Shown here: piece by piece, positions 6,703 through 63,532 of the stretch | How positions within the stretch are numbered: the first letter of the stretch is position 1 | Layout: each line of letters starts with the position of its first letter | DNA from: a virus | IMG/VR virus record: IMGVR_UViG_3300023184_000028 | Location: 1 to 64,000 of that record | DNA: 64,000 bases | Direction: 5' to 3' (one strand) | Program-made: the position numbers and the translations under genes | Notes under the pieces: generated by a model | Databases searched by the model: none | Told to the model about the DNA's origin: nothing | The model's input: only the letters and a program-made list of their open reading frames with translations

Positions 6703-6728
6703 AAAGGAAGTTTTTAACTTCCTTTTTT
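6703..6728. terminator. bidirectional terminator between convergent genes
   Basis: AAGGAAGTT and AACTTCCTT pair around TTT, with an A-run on one side and a T-run on the other. It separates the rightward peptidase gene from the leftward Clp gene, whose 3' end it overlaps. Confidence 0.75.
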
Positions 6729-8735
6729 TGTTTTAGACACTAGCAATGTTTCACCGTCATCTGTTTTCAAGGTATATTTCATGTCCTCTTTAATATTACC
6801 TTTTAGAACTTCTTCTGAGATAAAATCTTCAACTTTATCCTGAATTGCTCTCTTTAATGGTCTTGCTCCATACATTTCATCAAATCCTACTTTGGATATC
6901 ATTTTTTGGATTGAGTCATCAAATTTTATGAAGTATTTCATACCATCCAATCTTTTCTTTAATTTATCCAATTCAATATTGACAATTTTATCAACATCTT
7001 CTTGTTTCAGGGAATTAAAGACAACAATATCATCAATACGATTTAAGAATTCCGGAGCAAAAAACTTTTTAAGTTCTTTATGTAATGTTTCTTTTCTTAA
7101 CTCTTCATTTGCAAATACATTATTGGCATTTGTAAAACCAATACCCATTCCAAAATCTTGCATTTTTTTAACACCAAGATTTGAGGTCATAATAATAATA
7201 CAATTCTTAAAATTAATTTTACGCCCCAACCCATCTGTCATATGTCCGTCATCTAACATTTGAAGTAATGTTGAGAAGATATCTTTATTTGCCTTTTCAA
7301 TTTCATCAAATAAAATTACGGAGTATGGTTTATTTTTAACTTGTTCTGTCAATTGTCCACCTTCATCATAACCAACATACCCTGGAGGAGCGCCAACCAA
7401 ACGAGATGCCGTATGTTTTTCTTGGTATTCGGACATATCAACTCTGATAAGATTATCCTCACTTCCAAAAACTTCTTTTGCCAACTGTTTTGCCAAGTAG
7501 GTTTTACCAACACCTGTGGAACCTAAGAAGATAAATGAACCAATAGGTCTTCCTGGGTCTTTAATACCCAAACGATTTCTTTTAATTGATTTTGCAATAC
7601 GACTAACGGCGTTTTCTTGACCAATAACTTTTTCATTGAGGGCTTTATCTAAATTAATCAAAGCTTTCGCACCATCCAAACTCAATTTATTTACAGGTAT
7701 TTTAGTCATATTTGATACAACTTCATAAATCAAATCAAGAGGTACTTCTCTTTTTTTAGTGGTTACATCATTCTCAAATTTCTTTTTCTCATCGTCAAGT
7801 TTCATTAGAATTTTTCGTTCTTTATCTCTTAACTCTGCCGCTTCCTCGTATTTTTGTTTTTTAACAACATCAATTTTTTGTTGCTTGATTTCTTGAGCTT
7901 TACCTTTTAATTCTTCAATTATTTCGGGTAATTTCATATCCACTTGACATCTTGCACCAACTTCGTCTAAAATATCAATTGCTTTATCTGGGAATTCTCT
8001 ATCAGTGATATATCTGTCAGCCAAATTAACACATGCAAGTAAACATTCGTCAGTAAATGAAACTTTATGGAAATTCTCGTATTTGTCTCTGATGTTTCTA
8101 AGGATATCTAACGTTTCTTCTTTTGTTGAACCATCAACAATTACTTTTTGGAATCTTCTCTCCAAGGCACCGTCTTTCTCAAAGTTTTTACGGTATTCAT
8201 CAAGGGTTGTTGCACCGATACATTGTATTTCTCCACGAGCAAGAGCGGGCTTAAATATATTTGAAGCATCTAAGGAACCCGAAGAATTACCTGCACCTAC
8301 GATGGTGTGGATTTCATCAATGAATATAATAATTTCAGGATTTGCCTGAAGTTCTTCAATAATGACTTTCATTCTTTCTTCAAACTGTCCTCTATATTTT
8401 GTCCCAGCAACTACAGATGTCATATCCAAAGATAATACTCGTTTATCTGCGAGATTTCTAGGACAATCACCATCATATATCTTCATTGCCAAACCTTCAG
8501 CAATTGCGGTCTTACCACAACCAGGCTCACCAATAATAATGGGATTATTCTTTTTTCTACGGGATAGAATCTGAGCAATACGAAGTATTTCTTTTTCTCT
8601 ACCAATAACAGGGTCAAGTTTACCTTCTTCAGCTAACTTAATTAGGTCTCTACTGAAATTATCTAATGCGGGAGTTTTTGAGTCATACGACTTTCTTGAG
8701 TCCTTCTGATTCTCATTATCCATTGATTCTATCAT
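6714..8735 (-). CDS. ClpC/ClpA-like AAA+ unfoldase lacking the N-domain
   Basis: 673 residues with two AAA+ modules. D1 has Walker A GEPGCGKT (69-76) and Walker B IIIFIDE (135-141). A ClpC-type middle region with a UVR-like stretch ([15 protein letters not shown], about 296-310) follows. D2 has GSTGVGKT (405-412) and VILFDEIE (473-480). An IGF tripeptide (532-534) sits where ClpP-binding loops lie, so it could dock on host ClpP. Bacterial ClpC is about 810-850 residues; here the N-terminal adaptor-binding domain is missing and the protein starts about 20 residues before the D1-proximal segment. It is divergent from the Hsp20 gene across a 190-bp region with palindromic repeats. Confidence 0.9.
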
Positions 8736-23656: not shown

Positions 23657-25465
23657 ATGGGAGCATTATTAGAAAGCGGTCTTGTTGGTAACATTGGTCT
23701 TAAGCACCTTAAAGTTATCAAAGAAGACACTATCAGCAAATGGGACAAATTAGGATTCCTTGAGGGTCTTAAAGGTCACCTTAAAGAGAACGTTGCACAG
23801 TTATATGAAAACCAAGCATCATTCTTAATCAACGAAGCATCTGCAACAGATTCTTCAGGTTCTTTTGAAACAGTTGTATTTCCAATTGTGAGAAGAGTAT
23901 TCTCTAAACTTTTGGCAAACGATATCGTTTCTGTACAAGCTATGAACTTACCAATCGGTAAATTGTTCTACTTTGTACCTAAAATTCAAGGTTACACTGG
24001 CGGTTCAGCAAACCAATCAGGTACACACTACGCGCCAATCGGTTCACCGGGTAACTACCCTGGTAATCAAAATGCGGGATACGGTACATCAACAGGAGCT
24101 TACGCTAAAAATCTTTATGATTTGTTCTATGAAGGTTCTGAACCTACATTGAATCCTGCAGGTTTATTTGACTATTCTAAAGGACAATGGTCAGCGATTA
24201 CCGCAACTACGACTGTGGTATCTTGGTTAAATGGTGGTTTAGTTGAAAATAACTCAATCACAGGAAATCAAAGAAAAATGATTATCAAAATGTGTGGTTT
24301 CTATGATAACGGTGTTGGTAAATTAATGGGACCTGATGGTTCTGAAATTGATACTGAAACTTTCTTATCTGATTTACATATTGTTGCGGGAGCTGGTTTA
24401 TCGGTTTCTGCTGGTTGTGTTGATACAACTGCAGCCGCTTTACCGTTCAGAGTTGTTACTCAACAATATGGTAAAGGTATTGTGAGTCCTACTTACACTG
24501 CAACTCCAACTACATGGCCAAATGGTAATGGTGGTTCTTATGACAGTATTTGTTCTCAAGATGGTTGTATCATTTTGGAAGTTGATTTACAGTGTCCAGT
24601 ATGTGCAACTTGTGGAGCAGATTCATTAGATGGTTACACAGGTACTACAGTAGTATCTGCATCTTCTGCAACTTCTTTCGTAGCTGTTTTCAGACGTTAT
24701 GAAGAATTGGAATTTGAAGATAAAATTGGTGAAGTTTCTTTTGACCTTGAATCAGTAACAGTTTCTGTAACTGAAAGAAAATTAAGAGCACAATGGTCAC
24801 CTGAATTAGCTCAAGACGTTGCGGCTTTCCACAACATTGATGCTGAAGCAGAATTGACGGCTCTATTGTCTGAACAAGTTGCTGCTGAAATTGACCGTGA
24901 AATCTTACGTGATTTACGTAAAGGTGCCGCATGGACAATTCGTTGGGACTACAATGGTTGGAAGAGATTATCTCAAACAACTTCTTATACTCAAAAAGAT
25001 TGGAATCAAACTTTGATTACTGCAATTAATCAACTTTCTGCTCAAATCCACAAATCAACTTTGAGAGGTGGTGCAAACTGGATAGTTGTTTCTTCTGAAA
25101 TCAGTGCAATTTTTGATGACTTGGAATATTTCCACGTATCAAACGCAGCACCTGAGCAAGACCAATACAACATGGGTATTGAAAGAGTAGGTACTCTTGC
25201 AGGACGTTACCAAGTATATCGTGACCCTTACTTCCCAGCAAACACAGTTTTGATTGGACACAAAGGAACTTCATTGTTAGATACTGGTTACATCTACGCA
25301 CCGTATGTACCTTTACAATTAACTCCAACTATGTACAATCCGTTCAACTTTACTCCAATTAAGGGTATTATGACGAGATACGCTAAGAAAATGGTTAATA
25401 ACCGTTTCTATGGTAAAATCACAGTTGATGGTGTTAGAACATTTGACTTACAAGAATTGAGATAA
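23657..25465 (+). CDS. gp23: major capsid protein (T4 gp23-like)
   Basis: 602 residues. The N-terminal delta-domain ends with QASFLINE then ASATDSSG, a good gp21-type cleavage site after Glu60; T4 gp23 is cut after Glu65. The HK97-like core follows: VVFPIVRRVFSKLLANDIVSVQAM, then the C-terminal VTERKLRAQWSPELAQD, NIDAEAELTALLS, GTLAGRYQVYRDPYFP and MTRYAKKMVNNRFYGKI stretches typical of gp23. It forms hexamers of the shell. A strong terminator follows, ending the head module. Confidence 0.95.
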   Translation: MGALLESGLVGNIGLKHLKVIKEDTISKWDKLGFLEGLKGHLKENVAQLYENQASFLINEASATDSSGSFETVVFPIVRRVFSKLLANDIVSVQAMNLPIGKLFYFVPKIQGYTGGSANQSGTHYAPIGSPGNYPGNQNAGYGTSTGAYAKNLYDLFYEGSEPTLNPAGLFDYSKGQWSAITATTTVVSWLNGGLVENNSITGNQRKMIIKMCGFYDNGVGKLMGPDGSEIDTETFLSDLHIVAGAGLSVSAGCVDTTAAALPFRVVTQQYGKGIVSPTYTATPTTWPNGNGGSYDSICSQDGCIILEVDLQCPVCATCGADSLDGYTGTTVVSASSATSFVAVFRRYEELEFEDKIGEVSFDLESVTVSVTERKLRAQWSPELAQDVAAFHNIDAEAELTALLSEQVAAEIDREILRDLRKGAAWTIRWDYNGWKRLSQTTSYTQKDWNQTLITAINQLSAQIHKSTLRGGANWIVVSSEISAIFDDLEYFHVSNAAPEQDQYNMGIERVGTLAGRYQVYRDPYFPANTVLIGHKGTSLLDTGYIYAPYVPLQLTPTMYNPFNFTPIKGIMTRYAKKMVNNRFYGKITVDGVRTFDLQELR

Positions 25466-28153: not shown

Positions 28154-29653
28154 TTATTTTTTATTAACTATTTGGAATTTTATTGTTCTTTTATAAGTAT
28201 CAACTTCCCCTGAAGTATTAACTTTAATATCTATATAATATTCATTTGGTAATTTATCTTTTGTATCAAACATAAAATAATATTCGTTTGTTGCTCTATT
28301 TAGTTTTTCCCAACTTTGAACCTGAACTTCCGTATTTCCCTCTCTAACATATATTCTATAATAAGCATCTACGTTTTGTAATAATTGTTTTGTGGTATAA
28401 GCCTTTTTAATTACCACACCAATTTTTCTTAAATCAGTATTAAGTATTTTTTCATCTTGTTTAATACCATAAAAATCAAATCCGTATATTTCAGGTTCTC
28501 TTGATTGTGAACCTATTATAATTCTATTCTTATATGGTTGTAAAACAAATTCATTTTCTATGTCAGATAAGGTATTACCATCATATTGTATGTCACCCCA
28601 AACATCATTAAAGACACATGGAGTTTTATAACCAATTATAGGGGGTATTTCAACCTCATAAACACCTTTTGTTCTTGGACATGACCTAAGTCCTGTTAAA
28701 GTGGGTATTAGGTCACCATTGGGGTCTAAAATAGATACAGTTGGATTTACATCCAATGTTGTTAAGTTTCCGTCAATATAAACATACAAATAAAGTTTAT
28801 TTGCTTTGTTTTCAACAAATAAATTTCTATCATCTTGAACTAAATCATTATATGTTGATAATAAATAAGGTTCGTAAAATGTTTGGGTAAATCTACTAAA
28901 GAATGACACACAATAGTTATTAGTTAAACCTGTAATAGTTTCAAACTCTGGCCTGTATGCTATCCCCCATCCTGAAACATTGGTAATAGTTCCGTTTAAG
29001 ATACCATTTATTTCATTAGTCATGTCAAAATTAATATCTTCATCACCTCTATCAAAATGTTGCGAATCAACAATAACTAATTGGTCGTAATTCACTCCTG
29101 ATATAGAACTATTAGTATTTGAATATACACCATATTCAGACCAATGAGTTAAATTATTTCTTTGAAACCAATTTGAGGGTCTGTCAGAATAGGATTTATC
29201 ACCTATTAATTTTTTGGCGATTAATTCTCCGTTATAGGCATTTAATTGGTCACTTGAATAATCATAACCAACTCCCTCGTCCCAATCTTGTACAGTTCCC
29301 GTATCTCCTGAAGTTAAAGGGATTCTGAATAAAATTAAATCAAATGAACTCGCTCTCCTTCTACTATCGGAATTCAGTGAGTTTAATAAATCCGCATCAA
29401 AACGAATTGTATTTGACATTGTTAATGTATGAGTTAAAGTATTTGTACATTCTGTTGTTATTATTCCTGATGAAATTTTTTCAAGCAATTCTGATAAATC
29501 TATATTGAATAAAAATCGGCTAAATCCTGTTGGGGATATAGACATATCATTACTACCAAAATATAAATCAGTTATTGGATTTCTACCCGTATTGGCTAAT
29601 GTGTTAGAAACTAACGTATTGTTTTTACTAAAATATGACCTGTGAGTTGACAT
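28154..29653 (-). CDS. large beta-rich virion protein (tail or fibre type)
   Basis: 499 residues, beta-rich throughout and without catalytic motifs. The N-terminal half has DNRLRE-like features: paired short strands, FNIDLSELLEKI, TLTHTLTMSNTI, and a mid-region VSGWGIAYRPEFE. The C-terminal half reads like tandem Ig-like or propeller modules (LYVYIDGNLTTLDVNP, VYEVEIPPIIGYK). A tail-surface or baseplate-associated role fits the neighbours. It has its own late-type promoter. Confidence 0.6.
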   Translation of the reverse strand: MSTHRSYFSKNNTLVSNTLANTGRNPITDLYFGSNDMSISPTGFSRFLFNIDLSELLEKISSGIITTECTNTLTHTLTMSNTIRFDADLLNSLNSDSRRRASSFDLILFRIPLTSGDTGTVQDWDEGVGYDYSSDQLNAYNGELIAKKLIGDKSYSDRPSNWFQRNNLTHWSEYGVYSNTNSSISGVNYDQLVIVDSQHFDRGDEDINFDMTNEINGILNGTITNVSGWGIAYRPEFETITGLTNNYCVSFFSRFTQTFYEPYLLSTYNDLVQDDRNLFVENKANKLYLYVYIDGNLTTLDVNPTVSILDPNGDLIPTLTGLRSCPRTKGVYEVEIPPIIGYKTPCVFNDVWGDIQYDGNTLSDIENEFVLQPYKNRIIIGSQSREPEIYGFDFYGIKQDEKILNTDLRKIGVVIKKAYTTKQLLQNVDAYYRIYVREGNTEVQVQSWEKLNRATNEYYFMFDTKDKLPNEYYIDIKVNTSGEVDTYKRTIKFQIVNKK

Positions 29654-38730: not shown

Positions 38731-39321
38731 TTAATTATGCACAAATAAAACACCATTTACTTTTATAGGATTTGTTTGACTGGCAATTTTTGTTGCGTAA
38801 ATCCCATCGGCAACTGAAACAAAATCGGTCCACGGAGTTATTTTAATTAAATCCATATGTGAAATAAATGAACCCATATCAACCCTTCCTACATTTATAG
38901 TAGTGTTTAATATAGTATAACTAAAATGACTATGTAGTACATCGCAATAAACCATTTTCGTATTAAATAATTTTGCAGTTCCAATCATTCTTTCTAAAAA
39001 AATAGGAACATAGTAATTATCTTCATTCGTATATAAAACCCAATCTGCGTGAGGCTCTATCATTGATACCTTATGTCTATGATGAAACCCCCAGTCCCCC
39101 TTATGTTCTAAATTGTCAATAAAAACTATTTTATCACTCAATTTTCTAAACTGGTCAGGTAAAGTTTTATCATTAACAGGTCCATCATGATGTATGTAAA
39201 TTTCATAATTATCGTAAGTTTGGGCTAATAATGAATATACACAGGAAAATGCTGAATTAATTTTTTTTTCTGAGCCGTTGAGGTATGCCGAAATACAAAT
39301 TCTTATTTTATCGTTACTCAT
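38731..39321 (-). CDS. glycosyltransferase family 2 protein
   Basis: 196 residues. IRICISAYLNGSEKKINSAF and LLAQTYDNYEIYIHHDGP form the GT2 N-terminal pattern, and HADWVLYTNEDNYYVPIFLE holds the metal-site region (NED instead of DxD). Short and without membrane segments, so it is a catalytic domain only. It overlaps the 3' end of the gene upstream (39318) by 4 nt. Confidence 0.72.
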   Translation of the reverse strand: MSNDKIRICISAYLNGSEKKINSAFSCVYSLLAQTYDNYEIYIHHDGPVNDKTLPDQFRKLSDKIVFIDNLEHKGDWGFHHRHKVSMIEPHADWVLYTNEDNYYVPIFLERMIGTAKLFNTKMVYCDVLHSHFSYTILNTTINVGRVDMGSFISHMDLIKITPWTDFVSVADGIYATKIASQTNPIKVNGVLFVHN

Positions 39322-41123
39322 AGTGTTTTTAAATGTTTAGTAAAATTAATACACCTATTTATATTTTCCTTATGTAAGGGTAGTAGTGAAATATATAATA
39401 ATTTTGTTTTTATAACTAATTCGTTGATTTTAATTTTAGGATGTATTAATTGTAATTCACTTAAAAAATATTCTCTAAGTGATTTCAAATAAGTTTCTTC
39501 AATTAATTCATCATGTAAAATATAATCATACCCATATAAACTTTGTAGTATTTTCGCATAATCATACAAAATATCACCATGAATTGTTAACTTGTCATTC
39601 CAAACCCCTCTAATATCAATAAATTTACAAAAATCTTTATTTAAAAAAACATTTGTAAAAACACAATCCCCATGAATTATTCCTTGCTTATATTGAGATA
39701 TTGATTCAATATCCTTTAGATAATCGTTTAAACTAAGATTTAAAGAATTATAAAAACTGTCGTTTTTTTCAAATCGTTCAATAACTTTATTCTTGTAACC
39801 CCAAGATAAATCCAATTCTAATATTTCAGTTTTAGTTGTATGTATTTTATTAATTGTTTTTAATAAAATGTCAATATCATTTTTAGTTAGTTTTTTAGAT
39901 AATAATAAAGATGAAAAAGTCGGGTCTTTTATTTTTTCCATCTCTATTTTTGATTTTGATGATTGATATATGGTCGGAAAATATTTTTTTATTTCTTCAG
40001 GAATATTATTGTAGTAATTAGATTCTCCTTCTAAATTACCTAATTTTATTATTCTATTACCGTCAACTATTATTTTATTGTGAGCTCTTGGGTCATGGTC
40101 TTCAAATAAGTAAAATCCTGTTTCTTTTTCTAAATCTTTGTGTGCTGGTATTGCTTTATCATCAATATATAAATCGGCATATGGTTTCATTAAAATTAAG
40201 TCATGATATAGCACCCCATTATCAGACAAAACTTTTTCAATATACGGTCTTTTTTGTTCAATAAGGTCATAATTTGCATTTGTTGATAACATCCCCCTTG
40301 CGGTGTGTAAAATTATTTTATGCCCATCTTTGAATGCTTGATTACAATACTTTACATTTTTATCTATTTTCTTTGGATTTGTGTATAAATCGTAAATTAA
40401 TGTACCATCAATATCAAAACAAATAGTATATTCGTTTTTTAATTTATTGGTTTTTGAATAATTTTTTAACTGATGAGGGGTTCCGCAACAATCAAATTCA
40501 TTAGTGATATCAATAATCTCAAATTTATGATTATTTTTAACTAACTCTTTAATTGCCATACTTATGTACAACTCCGAATCTAAACATAATAAATTGTTAC
40601 ATGAGATTTCAATTAATTTTTTATTTTCAAACACATAGAATCCTGCATTAGCAATATTACTTATGGCGATTTTTTCCTTAATTTCTGTTACAACATTATT
40701 CTCATTAACCGTAACATAACTATATAAACCAGTTTTATCGTCATCGTAAAATGTTAAAATAAAACTACCTTCTTTATCTATTGCTTTTTTTATTGAAATG
40801 TCAGAAAATATCGTATCACAATCAATACATGCGATTTGTTCATCATCAGGTAAAAAATCACAAGCCTTTAAAATAGTTTCGGCGGCTCCCTTGGTTGGAG
40901 AACTCAATTCAATAATTTTAATTTCGTCACTAAAAATACTTTTTAATTGTTTTGACGTTTCATTATTACAAACAACATAAATTTCATTAAAATTATTTTT
41001 TAATTTATTTATTATTTTTTTTATTAAAGGTTCTGAATTAATTCTCACAAATGGTTTATATTCAGAATATCCTGCATTCAGAAACCTTAAACCAAATCCC
41101 ATCATAGGTATTAATGCTATCAT
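39318..41123 (-). CDS. three-domain sugar nucleotidyltransferase / HAD / kinase-like enzyme
   Basis: 601 residues. Domain 1 (1-220) is a nucleotidyltransferase with GFGLRF (9-14), Lys23-Pro24 and Asp101/Asp103. Domain 2 (about 232-345) is a HAD phosphatase: CFDIDGTL (Asp237, Asp239), LHTARG and YIDDKAI (Asp321/322). Domain 3 (345-601) is a choline/aminoglycoside-kinase-like domain: IIHGDCVFTNVFL (His484, Asp486, Asn491) and KFIDIRG (Asp503). Homologous parts occur in capsule and phosphocholine pathways. The order suggests activation of a sugar or alcohol phosphate in one chain. The fusion is unusual. Confidence 0.75.
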   Translation of the reverse strand: MIALIPMMGFGLRFLNAGYSEYKPFVRINSEPLIKKIINKLKNNFNEIYVVCNNETSKQLKSIFSDEIKIIELSSPTKGAAETILKACDFLPDDEQIACIDCDTIFSDISIKKAIDKEGSFILTFYDDDKTGLYSYVTVNENNVVTEIKEKIAISNIANAGFYVFENKKLIEISCNNLLCLDSELYISMAIKELVKNNHKFEIIDITNEFDCCGTPHQLKNYSKTNKLKNEYTICFDIDGTLIYDLYTNPKKIDKNVKYCNQAFKDGHKIILHTARGMLSTNANYDLIEQKRPYIEKVLSDNGVLYHDLILMKPYADLYIDDKAIPAHKDLEKETGFYLFEDHDPRAHNKIIVDGNRIIKLGNLEGESNYYNNIPEEIKKYFPTIYQSSKSKIEMEKIKDPTFSSLLLSKKLTKNDIDILLKTINKIHTTKTEILELDLSWGYKNKVIERFEKNDSFYNSLNLSLNDYLKDIESISQYKQGIIHGDCVFTNVFLNKDFCKFIDIRGVWNDKLTIHGDILYDYAKILQSLYGYDYILHDELIEETYLKSLREYFLSELQLIHPKIKINELVIKTKLLYISLLPLHKENINRCINFTKHLKTL

Positions 41124-51623: not shown

Positions 51624-54600
51624 ATGTCGTATCAAAATATAAATCAGTATAATTTTAATAAGTGGTACCTTATAGATAGGTCTGATATTCAGGATTTTTG
51701 CTTGGCATCAGATGAAAAGGACTACAAATTTGAGGTTATTTTCTCAAATACACTTATTGGTGCCGATGACGGTAATAAACTTCCTATCAGTTTTGATTTG
51801 GATTATAGTGGTAACACAGAATTTTATGTGTTAAATTATAATGAATATAATCCATTTAATAACTTAGTTTCATCCAATTATTATAACCCAAAAAATGAGG
51901 ATTTAACTTGTTTTACAGCGAACACTGCCTGTGATATTGGACTTACAGGAACCGATAACGGACTTGTAGAACAGATGACAGGTGAAACAATTACATTTAC
52001 TCAAGGATTATTTGATAATTCGTTAAAGTTTGAGAGATTATATTTTGATAGAAGATTAAAACTTCACCAAGTAACAGGATATACCCAATCACCAAACATA
52101 CAATTTTCAGGGCTACCTGATACCATGTTATTTAATGTAGTATCAAAATTGGAAGATAAGGTCGGTGTTTATCATGAATTATATGGTGGGTTTTATCAAG
52201 GGTTTTATAAGTTACATGGATACGATTACGAAATTTTTCCTGAAAGAGTAAATAAGGGATGGACTGTGGAGATGTTATTAAAACCAAGATTGGTTGATGA
52301 ATACATATTAAATCCCGGTGAAACAACTCTTAATACTTTCTATCCTGATAATAAAAATATATTTTTCTTTTTTGGAACTAGAGCAGAGAACAAATATTAT
52401 CACCATGCTAGCGGAAGTCCTGTTTCAGATACGGGATATACGAGGGTAACATCTTTATTAAGTTCTATTGAAACTTGTGCATGTTGTGATTCAGGCGTGA
52501 CTACTTCAAGATGTATTTACGTTTATCCTCCCCAACACGACCCATCAATTACCGCAACCACTTGTGGATGGGAGGGACAAAAACACGCTTGTTCTGCGGT
52601 TACAACTACAACAACTGTACAATGTGCCCCTTGTGAACCTTGTTTAACAGGATGTGATGGTACAACACCACAAACATACGAATATACTTGTGAAACCGAC
52701 CCATTATTTGATTCAATGTCAAATGCCATCGCACTTAAATTATGTGGTGACCCAAAGAATCCTCAGATTGGTGTTAGAATGTTAAGATTTACGGGGACAT
52801 CATTTGCCGATGGTAATTGTATCACGGGTTCTTGTTCTACAACAGGAGTTAGTGTTACGACAGGTTATACAATAGAAACATTATGTACTCCAAAAGGGAT
52901 ATATGACGATTGTTTATTAATTAGTACCGAAATCTTAAACAAAGAACGTTGGATTCAGATTGATGCGGTTTGGGAAAGAAATACATATCTTGAAAATTGT
53001 GATTTGTGGTATAAAGGAGGCTTGGGACTAATAACAAAAACGGAATATCTTGCGAGTTTATCAAACAACTCAATTTCATTGGTAACACCAACTAATTGTT
53101 CTCCTGATGAAAAAATAACCTTATCTCAATTAAATCAAGCTTGGTTAAATGAGAAAGATTTTAGAAAAGGTAAATTAAAAATATATGTTAATGGTAGGTC
53201 ATTCTATACTTTTGAGAATGTTGAAGAAATCATACCTAGGTCATTATATGCCGACAAAGAAAAACAACTTGGGGTTCCGTTTAGTATATCATGGGGTGGC
53301 GGAACGCAAGGATTACATAATAATTTAGTATTTACGGGAGCTCCTGATTCATTAACAGGTTTAATCTATCAACAAGACCCCGAATTATTCCCAAATAATA
53401 TTTTAAGTGGTACAACTTTATCAGGTTTAACAACTACTATTTTATTAGAACAAAATTTTGGTGGAACATTTGATGGGGGTATTTCACAGTTTAGAATGTA
53501 TAGCGAACCTTTAAGTGCTGATGAAGTTAAACATAACTACAAACTACTTAAAGATAAATTTTCGTTATTTGATTACGATTGTCCTAATTGTTGTTTACCA
53601 AATGATATTATTGGTAATATAAGTGTATGTGATATAAGTTATGACGTGTTATCTGCAAATACAATAACTGTAAGAGCAGTTTATTCTGCGGGTTCAATAT
53701 CTTCAACATATATTGCAGAATCTCAATTTCCTTTAGATGATAATATTGATTTTACATTCACTAATACATTGGGTGTATATGTTGGAGACCCAATAATTAT
53801 TGATGTTTCAATAACAATTGAATCTGGTTCTAGTTCAGGGACAACAACAATCGTAATAGATTCCGATTTTAATAATTTGGACTTAACAAGCAGTTTTTCA
53901 GGGTTTAATACGACATTTACAGGAACTACACAATTTGGGTTTAGAGCGATATATGATTATAACTTTATAATTCCTCCGAGCCCAACACCAACACCAACTC
54001 CTACACCTACACCAACTCAAACTCCTGACCAAGTATTAATTGACCCAATTATTACTGATAATGGTGAGTTTATTTCAGTTGGTGAAAACGAATATTTACA
54101 ATTTGTTGACCCAGAACAAAATATTTTTGATGCGGTTTTAACTACTATCGGTGAATACATATCGGTTGGATTTGACCAATTTTTAAGGTTTATAAATCCA
54201 TCCCCAAGTCCTACACCCACGATGGGTTCACCATTTCAGTTAGGTAGAAAACATGTTAAAGATGAAAGAGATAACAATTACTTAATTTCTAATTTTTACG
54301 ATTGGTTGGTTAGTGTTAAAACCAAACCAACGGTTGTTCCAACGCCAACACCGACAAAAACAAAATTACCAATAACACCAACACCGACAAAAACAAAATT
54401 ACCAATAACACCAACAAAAACACCAACCCCAAGTATAACACCAAGCAAATCAATAACAACGAAATATTGGGATGATAATGTATGGTGGGGTAATCAATTA
54501 AATACTCCAATGTGTGTTGGATATGCTTGGGCCCATTGGATTTCAGATGGCCCTATAGTTCATACTGGAACTCAACCTGTGGTTTCTCCTAGTTTAATAT

Positions 54601-55016
54601 ACTATGAAGCACAAAAAGTTGATGAATGGGTTGGTGAAAATTATGCCGGAACATCTGTTAGGGGTGCCGCCAAATACTTAAAAACTGCAGGTAAAATAAC
54701 ATCGTACTATTGGGCATTTGATGTTAACACTTTAGTTAATACCGTATTAAATTTAGGTCCAGTTGTTGTCGGCACCAATTGGTATTACAATATGTTTTAC
54801 CCGGTAAATGGTGTTATAAGTGTAGGAGGTTATTACGCTGGCGGTCACGCTTACGTAATAAATGGGGTTGATACAGTAAAAAAACAATTTAGAATAAAAA
54901 ATAGTTGGGGTCAAACTTGGGGTATTACTGGACATGCTTATATCTCATTTACGGATATGGCAAGATTAATTTCTGAAAGTGGTGAAATATGTTTGGCAGT
55001 AGAAAATAATTTTTAA
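51624..55016 (+). CDS. fibre/adhesin protein with LamG-like region and C-terminal papain peptidase
   Basis: 1130 residues. The N-terminal 680 residues are beta-rich with a LamG/concanavalin-like part ending in ISQFRMYSEPLSADEVKHNYK. Pro-Thr linkers (54 kb region, including 33-bp repeats) lead to a C-terminal papain (C1A) domain (947-1130): Cys964 in NTPMCVGYAWAHW, His1075 in GGHAYVINGV and Asn1093 in KNSWGQTWG complete the triad. The usual glutamine before the cysteine is not obvious (NQLNTPMC gives a possible Gln). A surface fibre carrying a peptidase could cleave a host surface protein during entry. Confidence 0.85.
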   Translation: MSYQNINQYNFNKWYLIDRSDIQDFCLASDEKDYKFEVIFSNTLIGADDGNKLPISFDLDYSGNTEFYVLNYNEYNPFNNLVSSNYYNPKNEDLTCFTANTACDIGLTGTDNGLVEQMTGETITFTQGLFDNSLKFERLYFDRRLKLHQVTGYTQSPNIQFSGLPDTMLFNVVSKLEDKVGVYHELYGGFYQGFYKLHGYDYEIFPERVNKGWTVEMLLKPRLVDEYILNPGETTLNTFYPDNKNIFFFFGTRAENKYYHHASGSPVSDTGYTRVTSLLSSIETCACCDSGVTTSRCIYVYPPQHDPSITATTCGWEGQKHACSAVTTTTTVQCAPCEPCLTGCDGTTPQTYEYTCETDPLFDSMSNAIALKLCGDPKNPQIGVRMLRFTGTSFADGNCITGSCSTTGVSVTTGYTIETLCTPKGIYDDCLLISTEILNKERWIQIDAVWERNTYLENCDLWYKGGLGLITKTEYLASLSNNSISLVTPTNCSPDEKITLSQLNQAWLNEKDFRKGKLKIYVNGRSFYTFENVEEIIPRSLYADKEKQLGVPFSISWGGGTQGLHNNLVFTGAPDSLTGLIYQQDPELFPNNILSGTTLSGLTTTILLEQNFGGTFDGGISQFRMYSEPLSADEVKHNYKLLKDKFSLFDYDCPNCCLPNDIIGNISVCDISYDVLSANTITVRAVYSAGSISSTYIAESQFPLDDNIDFTFTNTLGVYVGDPIIIDVSITIESGSSSGTTTIVIDSDFNNLDLTSSFSGFNTTFTGTTQFGFRAIYDYNFIIPPSPTPTPTPTPTPTQTPDQVLIDPIITDNGEFISVGENEYLQFVDPEQNIFDAVLTTIGEYISVGFDQFLRFINPSPSPTPTMGSPFQLGRKHVKDERDNNYLISNFYDWLVSVKTKPTVVPTPTPTKTKLPITPTPTKTKLPITPTKTPTPSITPSKSITTKYWDDNVWWGNQLNTPMCVGYAWAHWISDGPIVHTGTQPVVSPSLIYYEAQKVDEWVGENYAGTSVRGAAKYLKTAGKITSYYWAFDVNTLVNTVLNLGPVVVGTNWYYNMFYPVNGVISVGGYYAGGHAYVINGVDTVKKQFRIKNSWGQTWGITGHAYISFTDMARLISESGEICLAVENNF
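54343..54408 (+). repeat. two 33-bp coding repeats in the Pro-Thr linker
   Basis: The copies 54343-54375 and 54376-54408 are identical except for one base and encode TPTPTKTKLPI. Similar (ACNCCN) Pro-Thr tracts recur at 53985, 55270, 55590 and 63780 in other genes. Confidence 0.8.
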
Positions 55017-55030
55017 TAAATAATATTACC

Positions 55031-56251
55031 ATGAAATGTTATAAATATACAATTACGAACACGGCAACTACTTGGGTAACATTTGGTTACCATAGTTGCG
55101 AAAGTAACTTAATCGTAACTCAAGATGAGTTATTTCCGGGTCAGCATAAATATGTTTGGGCATACGAAGATACAATAGTATCTGCTTTCCAAACAGGTTA
55201 TAATCTTAATAATGATACTTTAAACCCAATACCAATTTCAACAGGTGCTACAACCACTACTACAACCATTCCACCTACACCAACTAATACTGAAACGCCA
55301 ACGCCAACAAATACTGAAACGCCAACACCGACTCCTACTCCAACATTACCAATGTATTATTACGATGTTAATGGTTATAGTTGCGGAACTCCTTGTAATT
55401 TTGCGGGAACATTTGTTGTTAAATCATCAACTCCTTTAACTACCGGATATTTTTATAATAACCCTGAAAATAGGACATATTCATTTGAAATTTTATCATT
55501 AACATCAGAAGTTGTTACAAATTATGATTTATCAACCGAACCTGGATATAGTGATTGTGTATCGTCTTGTTATGGGCCAACACCCACACCAACTAACACA
55601 TCTACCCCCACACCAACAGTAACACCAACAATAACACCAACACAAGCACCTAATTATAGTCAATGTGCGTCAGGGTGGACATTATTAAACTTGGATGTTA
55701 CAACATATAGAAATGGTGACCCAATTCCTGAAGTAACAGGTAACACAGAATGGACTGGTTTGACAACAGGTGCTTGGTGTAATCCTGGAGGTAGTTCAAA
55801 TCCAAACCCATTGTATGGAAAATTATATAATTGGTATGCAGTAAATGACCCAAGAGGTCTCGCACCCGAGGGGTATCATATACCAACACAAAGTGAATGG
55901 TTAGATTTAATAAATTGCGCCGGAGGAGCATCAATTGCTGGAGGTGAATTAAAAATGACAGGAAATACTGGTAATTGGGCGCCACCAAATTCAGGTGCAA
56001 CTAATAGTACTAATTTTTCGGGTTTACCAGCAGGAGTAAGGGCTTCAACAAATGGAAGTTTTGGGGGAACATATACACAGGCAGGTTTTTGGGCATCAAA
56101 TGAACAAAGTTCATTAAATGCTATTTCAAATTTTTTAACTTATTCAAGTACTAATGTTTCTTCTGTAAATTCACCAAAAAGTAGAGGACTTAGTGTTAGA
56201 TTAATACAAGACCCAACAACAACACCAACACCAACTCCAACAATAACGTAA
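55031..56251 (+). CDS. fibre protein with a C-terminal FISUMP domain
   Basis: 406 residues. The N-terminal 60 residues (KCYKYTITNTATTWVTFGYH) form a domain also found in the last gene of the window. Pro-Thr linkers separate it from a second small beta domain and then a FISUMP domain (about 225-395): GKLYNWYAVNDPRGLAPEGYHIPTQ, here in parts, then TNFSGLPAGVRASTNGSF, FWASNEQSS and SRGLSVRLIQD. FISUMP is a Bacteroidota surface domain with a C-type-lectin-like fold, so a receptor-binding role is likely. Confidence 0.8.
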   Translation: MKCYKYTITNTATTWVTFGYHSCESNLIVTQDELFPGQHKYVWAYEDTIVSAFQTGYNLNNDTLNPIPISTGATTTTTTIPPTPTNTETPTPTNTETPTPTPTPTLPMYYYDVNGYSCGTPCNFAGTFVVKSSTPLTTGYFYNNPENRTYSFEILSLTSEVVTNYDLSTEPGYSDCVSSCYGPTPTPTNTSTPTPTVTPTITPTQAPNYSQCASGWTLLNLDVTTYRNGDPIPEVTGNTEWTGLTTGAWCNPGGSSNPNPLYGKLYNWYAVNDPRGLAPEGYHIPTQSEWLDLINCAGGASIAGGELKMTGNTGNWAPPNSGATNSTNFSGLPAGVRASTNGSFGGTYTQAGFWASNEQSSLNAISNFLTYSSTNVSSVNSPKSRGLSVRLIQDPTTTPTPTPTIT

Positions 56252-56304: not shown

Positions 56305-58782
56305 ATGTTAACAGGAAAAACCATAGGACAATTAACTTATTTGGAAGTACCAACACCAGATACTTTAATACCCGTAGAATTAAGCGGAGCCACATATCAT
56401 ATTGACTTCTCGGCAATCACTACAGGAGGACTTATTGAAGTAACTTACTCTGAACTTGTAGATAAAATTAATGGTGAAACATTAACAAAAGGTACTCATT
56501 ATATCATAACTGATTTCCAAACTTGTTATGATGTTCCTGAATATTATGTAAATGGTAATCCTAAAGGAAGTAATGTAATACAATACAATCAAGGCAATAT
56601 TGAACCTATTATTGTTTTCGCAACAAGTATTAGTACAATTAGTTCTACCGCATATCAACCATCATATCCAAATGATAGAATCCAGTATGATTGGACTTTT
56701 AATATGACACCAAATACAGGTGGGATTGCTCTTGGTAGAATAACAGAAAGAATTGATGAATATAACAATAGAACCGACTATGACCACAGAACCATACTTT
56801 TTAATAGATTTAAATCATACAATAAAGGCTCTCAATTAACGGGGACTATCAATAGTTATGATTCCTCAACGGGTATAATAACAGGTAATGGTACTTTATT
56901 TTTAGGTGAAGTAGAAATTGGGGACATACTATTTTTTGAATATCAAGGATATATGGTGGGTGTTAGGGTTTATAGTGCTAGTACAAATACCACAATATTA
57001 GTTATTGTTGACCCGTCATTTGGAAGCACAATAAACTTCACAGGTGGACTTATTCCTTTCTACGCATCAACACCAACAGGTAATTACTACGAATATAAAG
57101 AGGTTTATATTGGACAAAAAAATGAAGAAGACTGGGATAATTTTTTAACTTTTAATTTAGATGGAAGTGCAATACATAACTATATTGGTGATTATTCTAA
57201 ATTTTATCTTGATGAAATCGGAAGTAACTCAGGATTTTTATTGGCAAATAATGTGTTTTATGGTAATAGAACTTATTCAAATACTATTGGTGATAGGTCT
57301 TATAACAATACGGGAACATATTGGTTTGCAAGAAATACAATTGCCGGTAGATTTTATAACAATGTAATTCATAATAATGGTTTTTATAGTAATAGTATTG
57401 GAGAATATTTTGATAATAACATTATTAAAGGTTATATGTATGAAAATACAATTGAACAATACTTTGAGAATAATGAAATTTATAGGGACTTTTATAGTAA
57501 TCAAATTGGTAACTATTTTGATTATAATACAACATACCATTATTTTTACGATAATAAAATAGGTGTTTATTTTGAAAATAACACTATTGGTCAAGAAGAC
57601 ATATATTATGAATTTTATTCAAACAAAATAAATAATAATTTTAAAGGTAATTTATTTCTTGGTGATTTTTCTCTTAATACTGTCGATTCTAATGTTGTGG
57701 GTAATCATTTTTCAGGTTATACTGTGGCAAATAAAATAGGTTTAGAAACAAATTATAATGACTTTTCAGATGTTGTGACAGGAAATGATTTAAAAGGGAA
57801 TTTTTATGAAAACACTATTGACGGTTCATTTGACGGAAATACTATTGGATTTACGTTTCACGATAACTCAATAGTTGGTACTCTACAAGGAAATAAGTTT
57901 GGCTATGAAACTTCAGGTAATACTATTACAGGATATTTCACAGGTAATACTGTTGGAAATTATTTTAATAATAATGAATTTTCAGGTGAAACCACAGAAA
58001 ACATAATAGGTGATTTATGTTATGAAAACCAAATATTAAACTATTTTGAGGGTAATAACATATCTTATGGTTTTAAAGGTAATCTTATTTTAGAACCATT
58101 TGCATTTAACAATGTGGGTCTTGGATTCACCGCAAATCAAATATCTGGCCAGACAATATTTAATACGTTTGGTGACGCAACCGCAGGAAACGATTTCTTA
58201 GGTAATTTTATAAGTAATAAAATAAGTAATTTGTTTGTAGAAAATTCGGTTGGCAGTGATTTTAGTCTTAATACTATTGGAGAATCATTTGGTTTTAATA
58301 TTATCGGTAATTCATTTGGAGCAAACACAGTTGGAATAGGATTCCAATATAACACCATCGGTAATGAATTTGAAAGTAATTATATTGGTGATATATTTTC
58401 CGGAAATACCATAGGTAATAGTTTTGGATATGGAGCTGTCTCAAGTCAAAAAAATATTGTAGGTGATAATTTTATTGCCAATACAATAGGAGAACATTTT
58501 TATAATAATAGAATTAGTAATAATTTTAACCTTAATACTGTTGATAACTATTTCCAATGGAATATTGTTGATACCATAGTTGGCGATACTTGTTTAACTA
58601 CGGGTGTTTTGTACGAACCAACTACGGTTAATATCTTTAAAAATAGAAATCTTGATAATAGATTGTCGTATTATGATGAGTTAGATGTATTAACAATAGA
58701 AACATTAACTGAAGCACCTTGTAATGACTTTGTGACTTTAGACATACCAGAGAATGATTTGAATTTTGGATTAATATTATAA
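56305..58782 (+). CDS. fibre protein with a long beta-solenoid repeat
   Basis: 825 residues. The first 30 residues (KTIGQLTYLEVPTPDTLIPV) match the start of the fibre gene at 62407. A globular part runs to about 300. From about 305 to 790 there are dozens of short repeats of the form NxIGxxFxxN (examples NTIAGRFYNNVIHNN, NTIGNSFGYGAV), which is the pattern of a right-handed beta-helix or similar solenoid. The repeat is rich in Asn, Phe and Gly. Such solenoids form the shafts of phage fibres or the catalytic part of depolymerases; no catalytic cleft can be identified. Confidence 0.75.
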   Translation: MLTGKTIGQLTYLEVPTPDTLIPVELSGATYHIDFSAITTGGLIEVTYSELVDKINGETLTKGTHYIITDFQTCYDVPEYYVNGNPKGSNVIQYNQGNIEPIIVFATSISTISSTAYQPSYPNDRIQYDWTFNMTPNTGGIALGRITERIDEYNNRTDYDHRTILFNRFKSYNKGSQLTGTINSYDSSTGIITGNGTLFLGEVEIGDILFFEYQGYMVGVRVYSASTNTTILVIVDPSFGSTINFTGGLIPFYASTPTGNYYEYKEVYIGQKNEEDWDNFLTFNLDGSAIHNYIGDYSKFYLDEIGSNSGFLLANNVFYGNRTYSNTIGDRSYNNTGTYWFARNTIAGRFYNNVIHNNGFYSNSIGEYFDNNIIKGYMYENTIEQYFENNEIYRDFYSNQIGNYFDYNTTYHYFYDNKIGVYFENNTIGQEDIYYEFYSNKINNNFKGNLFLGDFSLNTVDSNVVGNHFSGYTVANKIGLETNYNDFSDVVTGNDLKGNFYENTIDGSFDGNTIGFTFHDNSIVGTLQGNKFGYETSGNTITGYFTGNTVGNYFNNNEFSGETTENIIGDLCYENQILNYFEGNNISYGFKGNLILEPFAFNNVGLGFTANQISGQTIFNTFGDATAGNDFLGNFISNKISNLFVENSVGSDFSLNTIGESFGFNIIGNSFGANTVGIGFQYNTIGNEFESNYIGDIFSGNTIGNSFGYGAVSSQKNIVGDNFIANTIGEHFYNNRISNNFNLNTVDNYFQWNIVDTIVGDTCLTTGVLYEPTTVNIFKNRNLDNRLSYYDELDVLTIETLTEAPCNDFVTLDIPENDLNFGLIL

Positions 58783-58807: not shown

Positions 58808-59884
58808 ATGATACAAGGAATTAGAATAACAAGTACAAATTTATCAGGTGCCACCGCCGATGTAACTTTTTATCCAACAACAGGTGGCTCAACTTCTTTA
58901 GGTACTCAAACGGTACCTTTTGATAACATTAGTGATTATCCTTACGGTACTTATGATTTATCAATTGCCGAATACGATAGAACCTATGAAATAGAAGTAC
59001 CAGCACCCTTAACAGGCCAAAGTGCGTATACTGATACGGTAAGGGGAGTTACAGTAGATGGCGGAGCACAACCATTCTCAGGTGCGGTATTATCTGAGGT
59101 GTGGGGTACATATACAACAGAATATATCACAAATGAAGGTATACCATCTACAGACATTGTTTTAGCGGAAGGTATTTGTTCAGATGATGTGGATGCATCA
59201 AAAGTACCCGGAAATATTGGTGGATGGCCAACCAGTATTAATTCATTTTTAGGACCGTTTATGTCCGGTGGATTGGCAGGTTATCCGTTTGTTGGTAGTG
59301 TTGGGTTTGGAGCATTTGCAAGTCACGTAGCAACAACTCTTGGTGGAACCTTGTTTGTTACAAGTATGCCACATATTGGTGTAACTGAAGAAGGTAGTTC
59401 AGGTAGAATGTTACGTAGAGGTAAATCCGATAGTTTGACTGATAATACTTGTGGTGCTGTATGGGGTGCAATTAACCAAGTTGTAAATGTATTAAGTACC
59501 GCACCAAGTCAAGATAATCCACCATTTGACAATGGTAATTATTCTTTTTGGAAATTAACAGATATTTTATGGCCGTATAAATCAACCTTAACAGGTTTTA
59601 CAGGTACTGCTGAAGAAATATATAATAAACAAATGATATTTGCTACAGAAACTATTAGGGATTCCGCATATCAGTATGTTATTGACTATTTACCAGGTGC
59701 AACCGAAGCAAATACAGAAAATGATGTATATTTTTTAAGCGGTATTTTTATTAATAGTGATGTTAGTACGGGTACAACACAATTTGAATCATATGTTGTT
59801 GTTGATAAAGTTATGAAATATGTGTTTGACGACCAATGGTATGATATAACTGGCGATTATTTGGCGGGATTACCAATTGACTAA
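58808..59884 (+). CDS. fibre-module protein with an LCIB-type carbonic-anhydrase-like domain
   Basis: 358 residues. The first 60 residues form a small beta domain (VTFYPTTGGSTSLGTQTV) that recurs at 62139 and 63305. Residues about 92-330 follow the LCIB/C family pattern of algal and bacterial beta-carbonic anhydrase-like proteins: ICSDDV (Cys124, Asp126), GGLAGYPFVGSVGFGAFASH (154-173), SMPHIGVTEEG (His189) and NTCGAVWGAI (Cys215). The zinc ligands Cys-His-Cys and the Asp are all present. I compare from memory; no alignment was run. Hydration of CO2 at the virion surface or inside the cell is possible, as is a non-catalytic use. Confidence 0.65.
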   Translation: MIQGIRITSTNLSGATADVTFYPTTGGSTSLGTQTVPFDNISDYPYGTYDLSIAEYDRTYEIEVPAPLTGQSAYTDTVRGVTVDGGAQPFSGAVLSEVWGTYTTEYITNEGIPSTDIVLAEGICSDDVDASKVPGNIGGWPTSINSFLGPFMSGGLAGYPFVGSVGFGAFASHVATTLGGTLFVTSMPHIGVTEEGSSGRMLRRGKSDSLTDNTCGAVWGAINQVVNVLSTAPSQDNPPFDNGNYSFWKLTDILWPYKSTLTGFTGTAEEIYNKQMIFATETIRDSAYQYVIDYLPGATEANTENDVYFLSGIFINSDVSTGTTQFESYVVVDKVMKYVFDDQWYDITGDYLAGLPID

Positions 59885-59910: not shown

Positions 59911-60177
59911 ATGAGAATTTGTATATTATGTGAAGAATCTAAAGTTTCACAAGCAAGAGAAAAAATGAAAAATAATAATATCTTAAAAATAGATTTATCC
60001 CCAACCGGAGAATTACCCGCAACACATAAGTTATGTGTTATGGCAGTAACCGAAGAAAGGGCGAAACAACTTATGGATTCCGCCGAATTAACAATAATTG
60101 AGGCAATGAACCCAAGTGAATTTTTGGAAAAACATAATCTAAAAAAAATCGGCAAATACGGAATTGGAAACCTATAA
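59911..60177 (+). CDS. small hypothetical protein
   Basis: 88 residues. MRICILCEESKVSQAREKMK, then KIDLSPTGELPATHKLCVMA and IEAMNPSEFLEKHNLKKIGK. One Cys pair CILC suggests metal binding but the second pair is missing. It lies after the LCIB-like gene and overlaps the oxygenase gene by 14 nt. The short strand-turn-helix layout looks real. No family recognised. Confidence 0.55.
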   Translation: MRICILCEESKVSQAREKMKNNNILKIDLSPTGELPATHKLCVMAVTEERAKQLMDSAELTIIEAMNPSEFLEKHNLKKIGKYGIGNL

Positions 60178-60784
60178 GATAAAAAAAAATTTCATCACAA
60201 AGGATGAATCAAACCAAATAGTAAATTGGTTAGATTCTGTTAACCATACAGGTGATGATAGTAATTACCATCTTACAGAGCTCTCCAAAGTATTAAAAGG
60301 TAAATCTTGTATTTTTGATATTTCAAATACATCATTAACAAATTATATCACAAAATTCCAATCAATATCAGACGTATCTAAAAACCCTTTACCTGATTTT
60401 ATTCATAACATAATAGATAGAATATCAGAAGAGTTTAATTTTCCAAAAGATAATATTTTTCTTCAGGCGGTTGATATGAATAAAGGGGGAAAAATTAACC
60501 CACATTATGATGCATCTCTTGATGGATATGTTAATTATAAATGTAACATTAGTGTATTGTCAGAAGATTATGATTTATTTTTAGACAAAGAGTCAATTAA
60601 AATACAAGAAACTGATTTATACGGATTTGAGGCCTCATTATATAAACATTGGACAAACGAGTTTAATTCAAGAAGAGTTTTTTTAAGTTTTGGGTTTTTA
60701 TTAAAATATGAAGATGTGGGTAGAGATATAAACGACCCGAGAGTTAGATTAAGTAAAAGAATTGAGAAATACTTTCAAAAATAA
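60164..60784 (+). CDS. 2-oxoglutarate/Fe(II)-dependent oxygenase
   Basis: 206 residues. The facial triad is clear: INPHYDASLDGYV gives HxD (His114, Asp116), SLYKHWTNEF gives the distal His162, and SRRVFLSFGF gives Arg170/171, which would bind 2-oxoglutarate. The jelly-roll order of strands around these motifs is correct. Such enzymes hydroxylate proteins, nucleic acids or small molecules; in phages P4H-like members occur next to tail-fibre genes. Its overlap with the upstream small gene links it to the fibre module. Confidence 0.82.
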   Translation: METYKIKKNFITKDESNQIVNWLDSVNHTGDDSNYHLTELSKVLKGKSCIFDISNTSLTNYITKFQSISDVSKNPLPDFIHNIIDRISEEFNFPKDNIFLQAVDMNKGGKINPHYDASLDGYVNYKCNISVLSEDYDLFLDKESIKIQETDLYGFEASLYKHWTNEFNSRRVFLSFGFLLKYEDVGRDINDPRVRLSKRIEKYFQK

Positions 60785-60806: not shown

Positions 60807-61778
60807 ATGGGAACAAAATACATTGTAAATAACGTAACAGAACAAACTATAACAGGTGATTTAAAAATCAACGGAAATATAGTCGTCACAGGTTCAACAA
60901 CAAATAATAGTATAGGTACTTATAAAGCATTATTAAGTCAAACAGGTTCATTAACAGGGACTAGCGTGGGTGACTTTGGTGGTCAATTAATAATTGGTGA
61001 AACATATACTATTACAAATTATCAAACTGGTGATACTTTTACTAATGTTGCTGATGTAATAAGTGGTACTATTAACACAAGCGGTTGTGTATTTATCGCA
61101 ATTGCAGATGTACCGTCAAATTGGTCAAATAGTTCTGAATTAGTATCAGATGGTGATATTGTTTCCCGTGTTTTAGAAAATTCACTAGGTTTTGATATTG
61201 ATTGGATTCATAATGATACTGGTTATTACATTGGGTATCGTTCTGGACTTCCTTTTACATACTTTAATGAATTTCCGAGAAATGATATATATACGAATGC
61301 CCAATCAATATATCCTTTTAATTATTTTGGTTGTCCTTTTTCACCACTTTTAACAATTGGTGTTGGTAGTGATTATTCACCTAATGATTCTTTATATTTA
61401 TCTGTCACTGATGTGTGTGCAGGTCCAGGTCCTGCGTATTTAGATAACTTACTATACTTTACACCTATTCAAATACAATTTAAAAAAGAATATCTTGATA
61501 TATATGGTGCACTTGATGCTTCTTTTCCTTTTAATTATGTGAGCTTGGCATTATTTTGTAATGGTAGTTATTTAACCGATATTTATGCTGACGATACATC
61601 TTATGTTAATAACATGTCTGAATTAATAACACTATTAAATAATGACCCAGAAAGTAAAGTATATGATATATCATTCTCTGAAGGTGGTCCAGGCGGTATT
61701 ACAATGAGAATGTCAAAAGATATTAAAAATTTATATTGTGAGGGTGAATTAACATTTTTAATTTATAGTAACATTTAA
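60807..61778 (+). CDS. fibre or adhesin protein
   Basis: 323 residues. The start (MGTKYIVNNVTEQTITGDLK, NGNIVVTGSTTNNSIG) is the repetitive beta pattern of phage tail-fibre shafts, as in the gene at 62407. The rest is aromatic and beta-rich (YYIGYRSGLPFTYFNEFPRN) with no motif I know. A C-terminal YLSVTDVCAGPGPAYLDNLL segment may be a head domain. Likely part of the host-binding apparatus. Confidence 0.6.
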   Translation: MGTKYIVNNVTEQTITGDLKINGNIVVTGSTTNNSIGTYKALLSQTGSLTGTSVGDFGGQLIIGETYTITNYQTGDTFTNVADVISGTINTSGCVFIAIADVPSNWSNSSELVSDGDIVSRVLENSLGFDIDWIHNDTGYYIGYRSGLPFTYFNEFPRNDIYTNAQSIYPFNYFGCPFSPLLTIGVGSDYSPNDSLYLSVTDVCAGPGPAYLDNLLYFTPIQIQFKKEYLDIYGALDASFPFNYVSLALFCNGSYLTDIYADDTSYVNNMSELITLLNNDPESKVYDISFSEGGPGGITMRMSKDIKNLYCEGELTFLIYSNI

Positions 61779-62138: not shown

Positions 62139-62399
62139 TTGTACGCAGTAAAATTAAATAGCAATTTATATAGTGGTCAGACGGCTAATATTATCTTTAG
62201 TCCTGATACAGGAGGTACTGTAGATATTGGTTCTGTGGTTATACCATATGATTTTTTTGTTGATTATTATTATGGTGTCTATAGCTTTTCATTTCCTGAC
62301 ATAAACAAAAATTGTTTTTTATATCTTAATGACCACTATTTATTATTGGAAAATGGATATAATTTACTACAAGAAGACGGTTCAACGATAATTATATAA
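62139..62399 (+). CDS. small beta-domain protein (fibre-module paralogue)
   Basis: 86 residues from a TTG start; there is no ATG with this frame near the beginning, and TTG is used rarely here. The beta domain (NIIFSPDTGGTVDIGSVVIP) matches the N-terminal domain of the gene at 58808 and the gene at 63305. The C-terminus (NDHYLLLENGYNLLQEDGST) is distinct. Probably a small virion protein. Confidence 0.45.
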   Translation: MYAVKLNSNLYSGQTANIIFSPDTGGTVDIGSVVIPYDFFVDYYYGVYSFSFPDINKNCFLYLNDHYLLLENGYNLLQEDGSTIII

Positions 62400-63304: not shown

Positions 63305-63532
63305 ATGAGCACATCAACCACCATAACACTTGAAAGTATAAATTATAGTGGTGAGTCAGCTTCCATTATTTTTAGGCCGATTGGAGACACTGTGTCAATT
63401 AATTTAGGTACTCAAATACTTCCATACGTATTTGACCCATCAATTTTAGAACCATCCAAAACTATTTATGGACAATATGTAATTAAGACCTCAACAGGGA
63501 ATTGTTCATATAACTTATTTGTGGTTAAGTAA
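63305..63532 (+). CDS. small beta-domain protein (fibre-module paralogue)
   Basis: 75 residues. The sequence (NYSGESASIIFRPIGDTVSI) follows the same small beta domain as at 58808 and 62139: a strand, SGxxA-x-I/V-x-F, then a gly-turn, then a second strand (LGTQILPYVF). It starts 1 nt after the fibre gene. A late-type motif for the next gene overlaps its end. Confidence 0.5.
   Translation: MSTSTTITLESINYSGESASIIFRPIGDTVSINLGTQILPYVFDPSILEPSKTIYGQYVIKTSTGNCSYNLFVVK

Follow-up and report, generated by a model that had tools for sequence, protein, structure and literature searches.

Open reading frame (ORF) 58808-59884 raises the question of whether a tailed phage encodes a carbonic anhydrase (CA) among its fiber genes and, if it does, whether that protein is a working enzyme carried on the particle. 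Known carbonic anhydrases come from every domain of cellular life and from a small number of giant viruses. The window analyzed here is a stretch of 64,000 nucleotides, positions 1 to 64,000 of IMG/VR record IMGVR_UViG_3300023184_000028, which is 192,370 bases long in total. The ORF lies on the + strand in a fiber-like module of this record, opens with ATG, and encodes 358 amino acids without an internal stop; it comprises an N-terminal adaptor domain followed by an LCIB-type beta-carbonic anhydrase domain. Because genes for a terminase, a portal resembling gp20, and a head protein resembling gp23 occur in the same window, the genome that carries the ORF is that of a T4-like tailed phage (the T4-like major head protein is at 23657-25465, + strand; phrog_138, E=8e-67), and the fiber-type neighbors of the ORF place it in a structural or fiber-type module. 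The terminase is only 26 to 28% identical to those of Flavobacterium, Microcystis, and uncultured phages; a Bacteroidota host is possible, but this is a guess from these terminase-related phages and from a Fib_succ_major domain encoded in the same module.

Profile, fold, and catalytic residues show that residues 103 to 333 (59114-59806, + strand) form a beta-carbonic anhydrase domain of the LCIB type, a type typical of algae. The first-pass annotation had recognized the pattern of the LCIB/C family in residues 92 to 330 and had suggested a Pfam search and a comparison of an AlphaFold model with diatom LCIB structures; the assignment held in both. Pfam LCIB_C_CA (PF18599) matched the ORF with E=2.6e-28 over profile positions 11 to 217 of 223, at 99.3 bits or about four times the curated cutoff of 25 bits, and this was the only match to the family in the whole 192-kb genome. 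A phmmer search of PDB sequences recovered solely LCIB-family chains (6kfs, E=6e-13; PtLCIB4 5b5y, E=2e-9), and a profile built from 49 viral and cellular relatives recovered all LCIB structures in the PDB (E of 1e-15 to 2e-55) and no others. The CA domain was modeled by AlphaFold (AF2) with pLDDT mostly of 85 to 98, and Foldseek aligned the model to 6kfs (E=1e-14; TM of 0.82 by target length), PtLCIB4 (5b5y_A; TM of 0.81), and CrLCIC (TM of 0.70), with ordinary beta-CAs next at lower scores. In both sequence and fold, PtLCIB4 and 6kfs are closer to the phage protein than CrLCIB and CrLCIC are. With the LCIB/LCIC family as a whole (PtLCIB4 5b5y, 6kfs, CrLCIB 5k5w, and CrLCIC 5b5x) it has in common the fold (TM of ∼0.8), the Cys-His-Cys zinc ligands, the Asp, the transition-state His, and the GGLAG.PF.G block. 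It differs in being phage encoded and joined to structural proteins by fusion or insertion, in an added N-terminal QxxYT segment and a C-terminal extension ending in YxxGL, and in belonging to a separate clade on a long branch, with only ∼15 to 24% identity to the solved members in structural alignments.

All of the active-site positions expected from PtLCIB4 could be located in the phage protein. Cys124, Ser125, and Asp126 (59177-59185, + strand) align with C46, S47, and D48 of PtLCIB4, and alignment to PtLCIB4 and 6kfs identifies them as a zinc ligand, a small residue, and the catalytic Asp, respectively. The block GGLAGYPFVGSVGFGAFASH spans residues 154 to 173 (59267-59326, + strand), and its last residue, His173, corresponds to His88 of PtLCIB4; a conserved Gln/His of beta-CAs has been described as transition-state stabilizing (PMC13144422). 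The remaining zinc ligands are His189 (59372-59374, + strand), equivalent to the His of SHVGV, and Cys215 (59450-59452, + strand), equivalent to the second Cys of ACCG, and Arg203 (59414-59416, + strand), the first Arg of RRGR, is a proposed partner of Asp126 in an Asp-Arg dyad, a role that is inferred. The numbering of S47 and H88 was confirmed via two mutant PDB entries (S47R and H88A, the latter being 5b5z), and C46 and D48 follow from these. Cys124-x-Asp126, the GGLAGYPFVGSVGFGAFASH block, His189, and Cys215 had all been named in the first-pass annotation and were confirmed at these positions; His173, whose PtLCIB4 counterpart is mutated in 5b5z, and the invariant Arg203 are additions to that list. 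Clustering of the zinc residues in a model had also been put forward there as a test, and for this the support is only indirect, resting on the fold match and the alignment, since zinc geometry was not measured.

Residues C124, D126, H173, H189, R203, and C215 are identical in every viral copy that covers them (47 to 49 of 50, the rest being gaps) and in every cellular copy that covers them (38 to 40 of 40), and the catalytic set remains constant across viral sequences down to ∼45% identity. Across the CA domain only 20 of 242 columns are invariant among the 49 viral and cellular sequences, yet all five residues nominated beforehand (C124, D126, H173, H189, and C215) fall among them (hypergeometric P of ∼2e-6), and therefore the catalytic pattern is not due to chance. 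Invariance within the GGLAG block is partly by construction, as the cellular set was gathered with a pattern for that block, but that pattern did not include the six columns listed above. At position 125, 45 viral copies have Ser and 2 have Ala; Phe is usual at this position in bacterial LCIB homologs, and Arg occupies it in the PtLCIB4 S47R structure. The CA domain is under purifying selection, with a median dN/dS of 0.19 among 23 close relatives; the median for the adaptor is 0.23. We consider zinc binding and activity of the phage domain likely, but both are inferred, as there are no zinc or activity data.

One rival explanation is that the CA fold is catalytically dead, or its activity irrelevant, and that it serves the virion for binding, in the manner of vaccinia D8, which binds chondroitin sulfate through a carbonic-anhydrase-like domain (PMC9570275). 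That precedent, with the same sort of placement on attachment proteins, speaks for it, as does the finding that purified CrLCIB and CrLCIC are inactive on their own despite the fold and zinc site (Jin et al. 2016, via PMC8825250), so that the fold alone is no guarantee of catalysis. D8 resembles the phage protein in bearing a CA fold on a viral particle (inferred for the phage), but D8 has an alpha-CA fold and binds glycosaminoglycans, whereas the phage domain is a beta-CA that keeps the full catalytic set. Loss of zinc or catalytic residues would be expected in a pure binder and none has been lost; we therefore regard this explanation as unlikely. PtLCIB3 and PtLCIB4 appear to be constitutively active (PMC9614477). 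The first-pass annotation had left both an active enzyme and a binding module with lost activity as options, and we favor the former, with activity still inferred, because no member of the catalytic set varies and purifying selection acts on it. A second rival is an active CA-fold enzyme with another small substrate, for example in COS or CS2 hydrolysis, reactions that occur in other beta-CA-fold enzymes. The zinc site would also serve such a reaction, and a long branch leads to the viral clade, but the catalytic set is that of PtLCIB4 and 6kfs, including the equivalent of His88, and there is no positive evidence for another substrate, making this very unlikely.

To our knowledge no phage carbonic anhydrase of the LCIB kind has been described, as the first-pass annotation had also supposed. 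A tblastn search of 50,697 INPHARED phage records gave no match to the ORF up to E=0.1, PHROGs and BFVD contained no match to it, and the open literature searched held no report of LCIB in phages, with only an algal review surfacing. Other mentions of carbonic anhydrase in that literature proved unrelated: the term referred to plasmid cyn genes rather than a phage LCIB in a Klebsiella phage paper and to a size standard in a phage-structure preprint, and the giant-virus and sponge-virome cases concern different settings. In a collection of viral contigs, by comparison, 59 loci matched the protein in full or in part, and a CA-domain profile gave 64 matches, largely on the same contigs. Cellular homologs at ∼30% identity were found in Bacteroidota, Balneolota, Planctomycetota, Spirochaetota, Chloroflexota, and one archaeal bin; the bacterial ones (Prolixibacteraceae, Balneolaceae, Planctomycetota, and others) have the same six key residues in a ∼230-aa core but stand alone, without an adaptor. 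In a phylogenetic tree, a branch of length 3.8 with 100/100 support set all viral copies apart from the cellular ones; as the tree has no root and includes some long cellular branches, the donor and the direction of transfer remain unresolved.

All viral LCIB sequences are metagenomic and many of the contigs are fragments, and a referee might suspect an assembly chimera or a misannotated host fragment, given that no isolate phage is represented. Against this, some 60 viral contigs carry the gene, they form a single viral clade, conserved phage neighbors lie on the same contigs, and the frames are open with a dN/dS of ∼0.19. We consider such an artifact all but excluded.

The N-terminal adaptor (residues 1 to 66; 58808-59005, + strand) is a predicted six-stranded beta domain. 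The first-pass annotation had noted that it recurs in two other small genes, and this held: a profile built without them matched ORFs of 86 aa at 62139-62399 (+ strand; E=1e-17) and 75 aa at 63305-63532 (+ strand; E=4e-9), both composed of the adaptor domain, and no further match was found across 104 kb of this phage. Elsewhere in the viral collection the adaptor begins lectin-like (laminin-G) proteins in L056 to L059 and a fiber-like protein in L010 that is similar to the protein at 51624 (the papain-like C1 kind). The laminin-G proteins match phrog_8510, annotated as "virion structural protein," but they do so via their laminin-G part. The adaptor has a pLDDT of ∼30 in the full-protein AF2 model and a mean of 86 when modeled alone; the latter model had no significant match among PDB folds (best E=0.15, to Ig- and VHL-like folds, on which we place no weight), and no homolog of the adaptor was found in Pfam, PHROGs, or the PDB.

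The neighborhood of the gene has several features of its own. Upstream, 51624-55016 (+ strand) encodes a fiber-like protein with Pro-Thr repeats and a C-terminal papain-like (C1) domain at 54444-55016 (+ strand), similar to domains in the large phages XacN1, RAS14, and CM1, and 55031-56251 (+ strand), in the same module, encodes another Pro-Thr-repeat protein, with the Fib_succ_major domain (Pfam E=2.9e-32). The next gene, 56305-58782 (+ strand), encodes 825 aa with Asn/Gly-rich repeats (N.IG..F..N), by eye a likely beta-helix fiber, and it is the upstream neighbor of the LCIB gene in most close relatives. A conserved 88-aa protein (59911-60177, + strand; 48 to 97% identical in relatives) is encoded directly downstream of the LCIB gene, and then comes 60164-60784 (+ strand), which by eye resembles 2-oxoglutarate/Fe(II) oxygenases (HYD...H...RR) without a significant Pfam match and in many relatives remains close to the LCIB gene; with proline-rich fiber repeats and glycosyltransferases nearby, a modifying role is conceivable. 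Farther away, the window encodes the ATPase of an ATP-dependent protease (6714-8735, - strand; phrog_4871, E=2e-237) and, among glycosyltransferase-type genes, a multidomain protein (39318-41123, - strand) whose middle part is phosphoheptose-isomerase- or kinase-like (phrog_1238 and phrog_415). A 547-aa phage protein in L192 (13811-15454, - strand; genome position ∼77.8 to 79.5 kb) carries a full Fe/Mn superoxide dismutase in its N-terminal part (Pfam Sod_Fe_C, E=8.5e-40; Sod_Fe_N, E=4e-23).

The strongest evidence is an insertion of the CA domain, found among the proteins that carry it in related phages. A unit of residues ∼71 to 355, from QxxYT to YxxGL (59018-59872, + strand), is seen in all five carrier contexts. 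In the main group it follows the ∼66-residue N-terminal domain, in L161 and L162 it follows an N terminus that stands as a separate neighboring gene in L146, L153, and L157, and in L146 it has yet another N terminus; the L151 protein has a C terminus of its own, with weak similarity (E=7e-4) to a fiber gene like that at 60807. In L051, L052, and L163 the domain lies cleanly inside a ∼500-aa structural-cassette protein, at the junction ...LILFRIP / PQYWDEG.... This carrier occurs without the insert in 77 other contigs, where its halves are joined by a constant 20-residue spacing, and is conserved at ∼75 to 96% outside the insert; an insert-less homolog with 57% identity is encoded by the phage studied here (28154-29653, - strand). 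It is likely that the CA domain has passed between carriers as a cassette of ∼285 residues within this phage group. Exactly one copy was present in 17 of 17 records tested, whichever the carrier, and eight of the tested records with a fiber-type copy also have a domain-less carrier homolog elsewhere in the record.

All of these carriers look like virion parts, an inference from gene position and from the other partners of the adaptor. Assignment to the fiber module, as in the first-pass annotation, is supported by the common adaptor and, independently, by insertion into the structural-cassette protein. In L207 the 500-aa carrier gene directly follows a 522-aa baseplate-type gene near the head gene, but the evidence for a baseplate protein is weak (the window homolog at 29683-31251 matches Phage_base_V with E=0.017). 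Pfam gave no match for the 500-aa carrier and PHROGs none for its window homolog, and neither is found in annotated phages; a point against a virion location is that neither the adaptor nor this carrier matches any annotated virion family. Display of the CA on the virion is in our judgment probable, but it is inferred, in the absence of virion proteomics. Enzyme domains on structural-type proteins are seen in other phage fibers (for example, the papain-like C1 domains of XacN1 and of the protein encoded at 51624), as here, although no carbonic anhydrase was found among the fiber enzymes of annotated phages. The carriers also bear on a third rival, an auxiliary metabolic gene whose intracellular product would supply bicarbonate or regulate pH for biosynthesis. 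In its favor, cellular LCIB homologs are stand-alone proteins of ∼230 aa in Bacteroidota and others, and the CA gene of a giant virus has been put forward as auxiliary (PMC13037468). No intact viral copy stands alone, however; all are fused, to the adaptor or to other fiber-type N or C termini, or inserted, which renders this explanation unlikely.

Since the full catalytic set is kept while the carriers change, and every carrier is structural or fiber type, a particle-displayed enzyme is the best reading of these data. Our confidence that the protein is a catalytically competent CA displayed on the particle leans only modestly toward yes; both catalysis and virion location are inferred. In the proposed mechanism, the adaptor would dock the protein to the particle, and the CA domain (residues ∼71 to 355) would bind one zinc via Cys124, His189, and Cys215; Asp126, with Arg203, would take a proton from the zinc water and keep that water in place, and the transition state would be stabilized by His173. 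Because the carriers are all virion-like and there is one copy per genome, action is likely to take place outside the cell at the particle surface, putatively in the layer surrounding a respiring host, which is rich in CO2 and poorly buffered. There the enzyme would speed the conversion of CO2 and H2O to HCO3- and H+, altering local pH or bicarbonate during adsorption or injection. Such an effect on pH or bicarbonate, already raised by the first-pass annotation, is chemically plausible and untested, and a role in attachment is no more than possible. LCIB enzymes are dimers, an awkward fit with a trimeric fiber.

LCIB-type CAs are absent from the phage records, phage protein families, and predicted viral structures searched, and the insertion in the 500-aa protein is a natural case in which a structural-cassette protein of a phage has taken up a folded enzyme. 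A bolder reading, which we offer tentatively, is that a group of tailed phages displays an active beta-CA and moves it as a cassette among structural carriers, and that the chemistry of CO2 and protons at the surface of the host would then belong to attachment or injection, serving, for example, as a sensor of a respiring cell or an acid trigger near one. The finding thus poses a new and directly testable question: are phage particles equipped for CO2 chemistry, and to what end?
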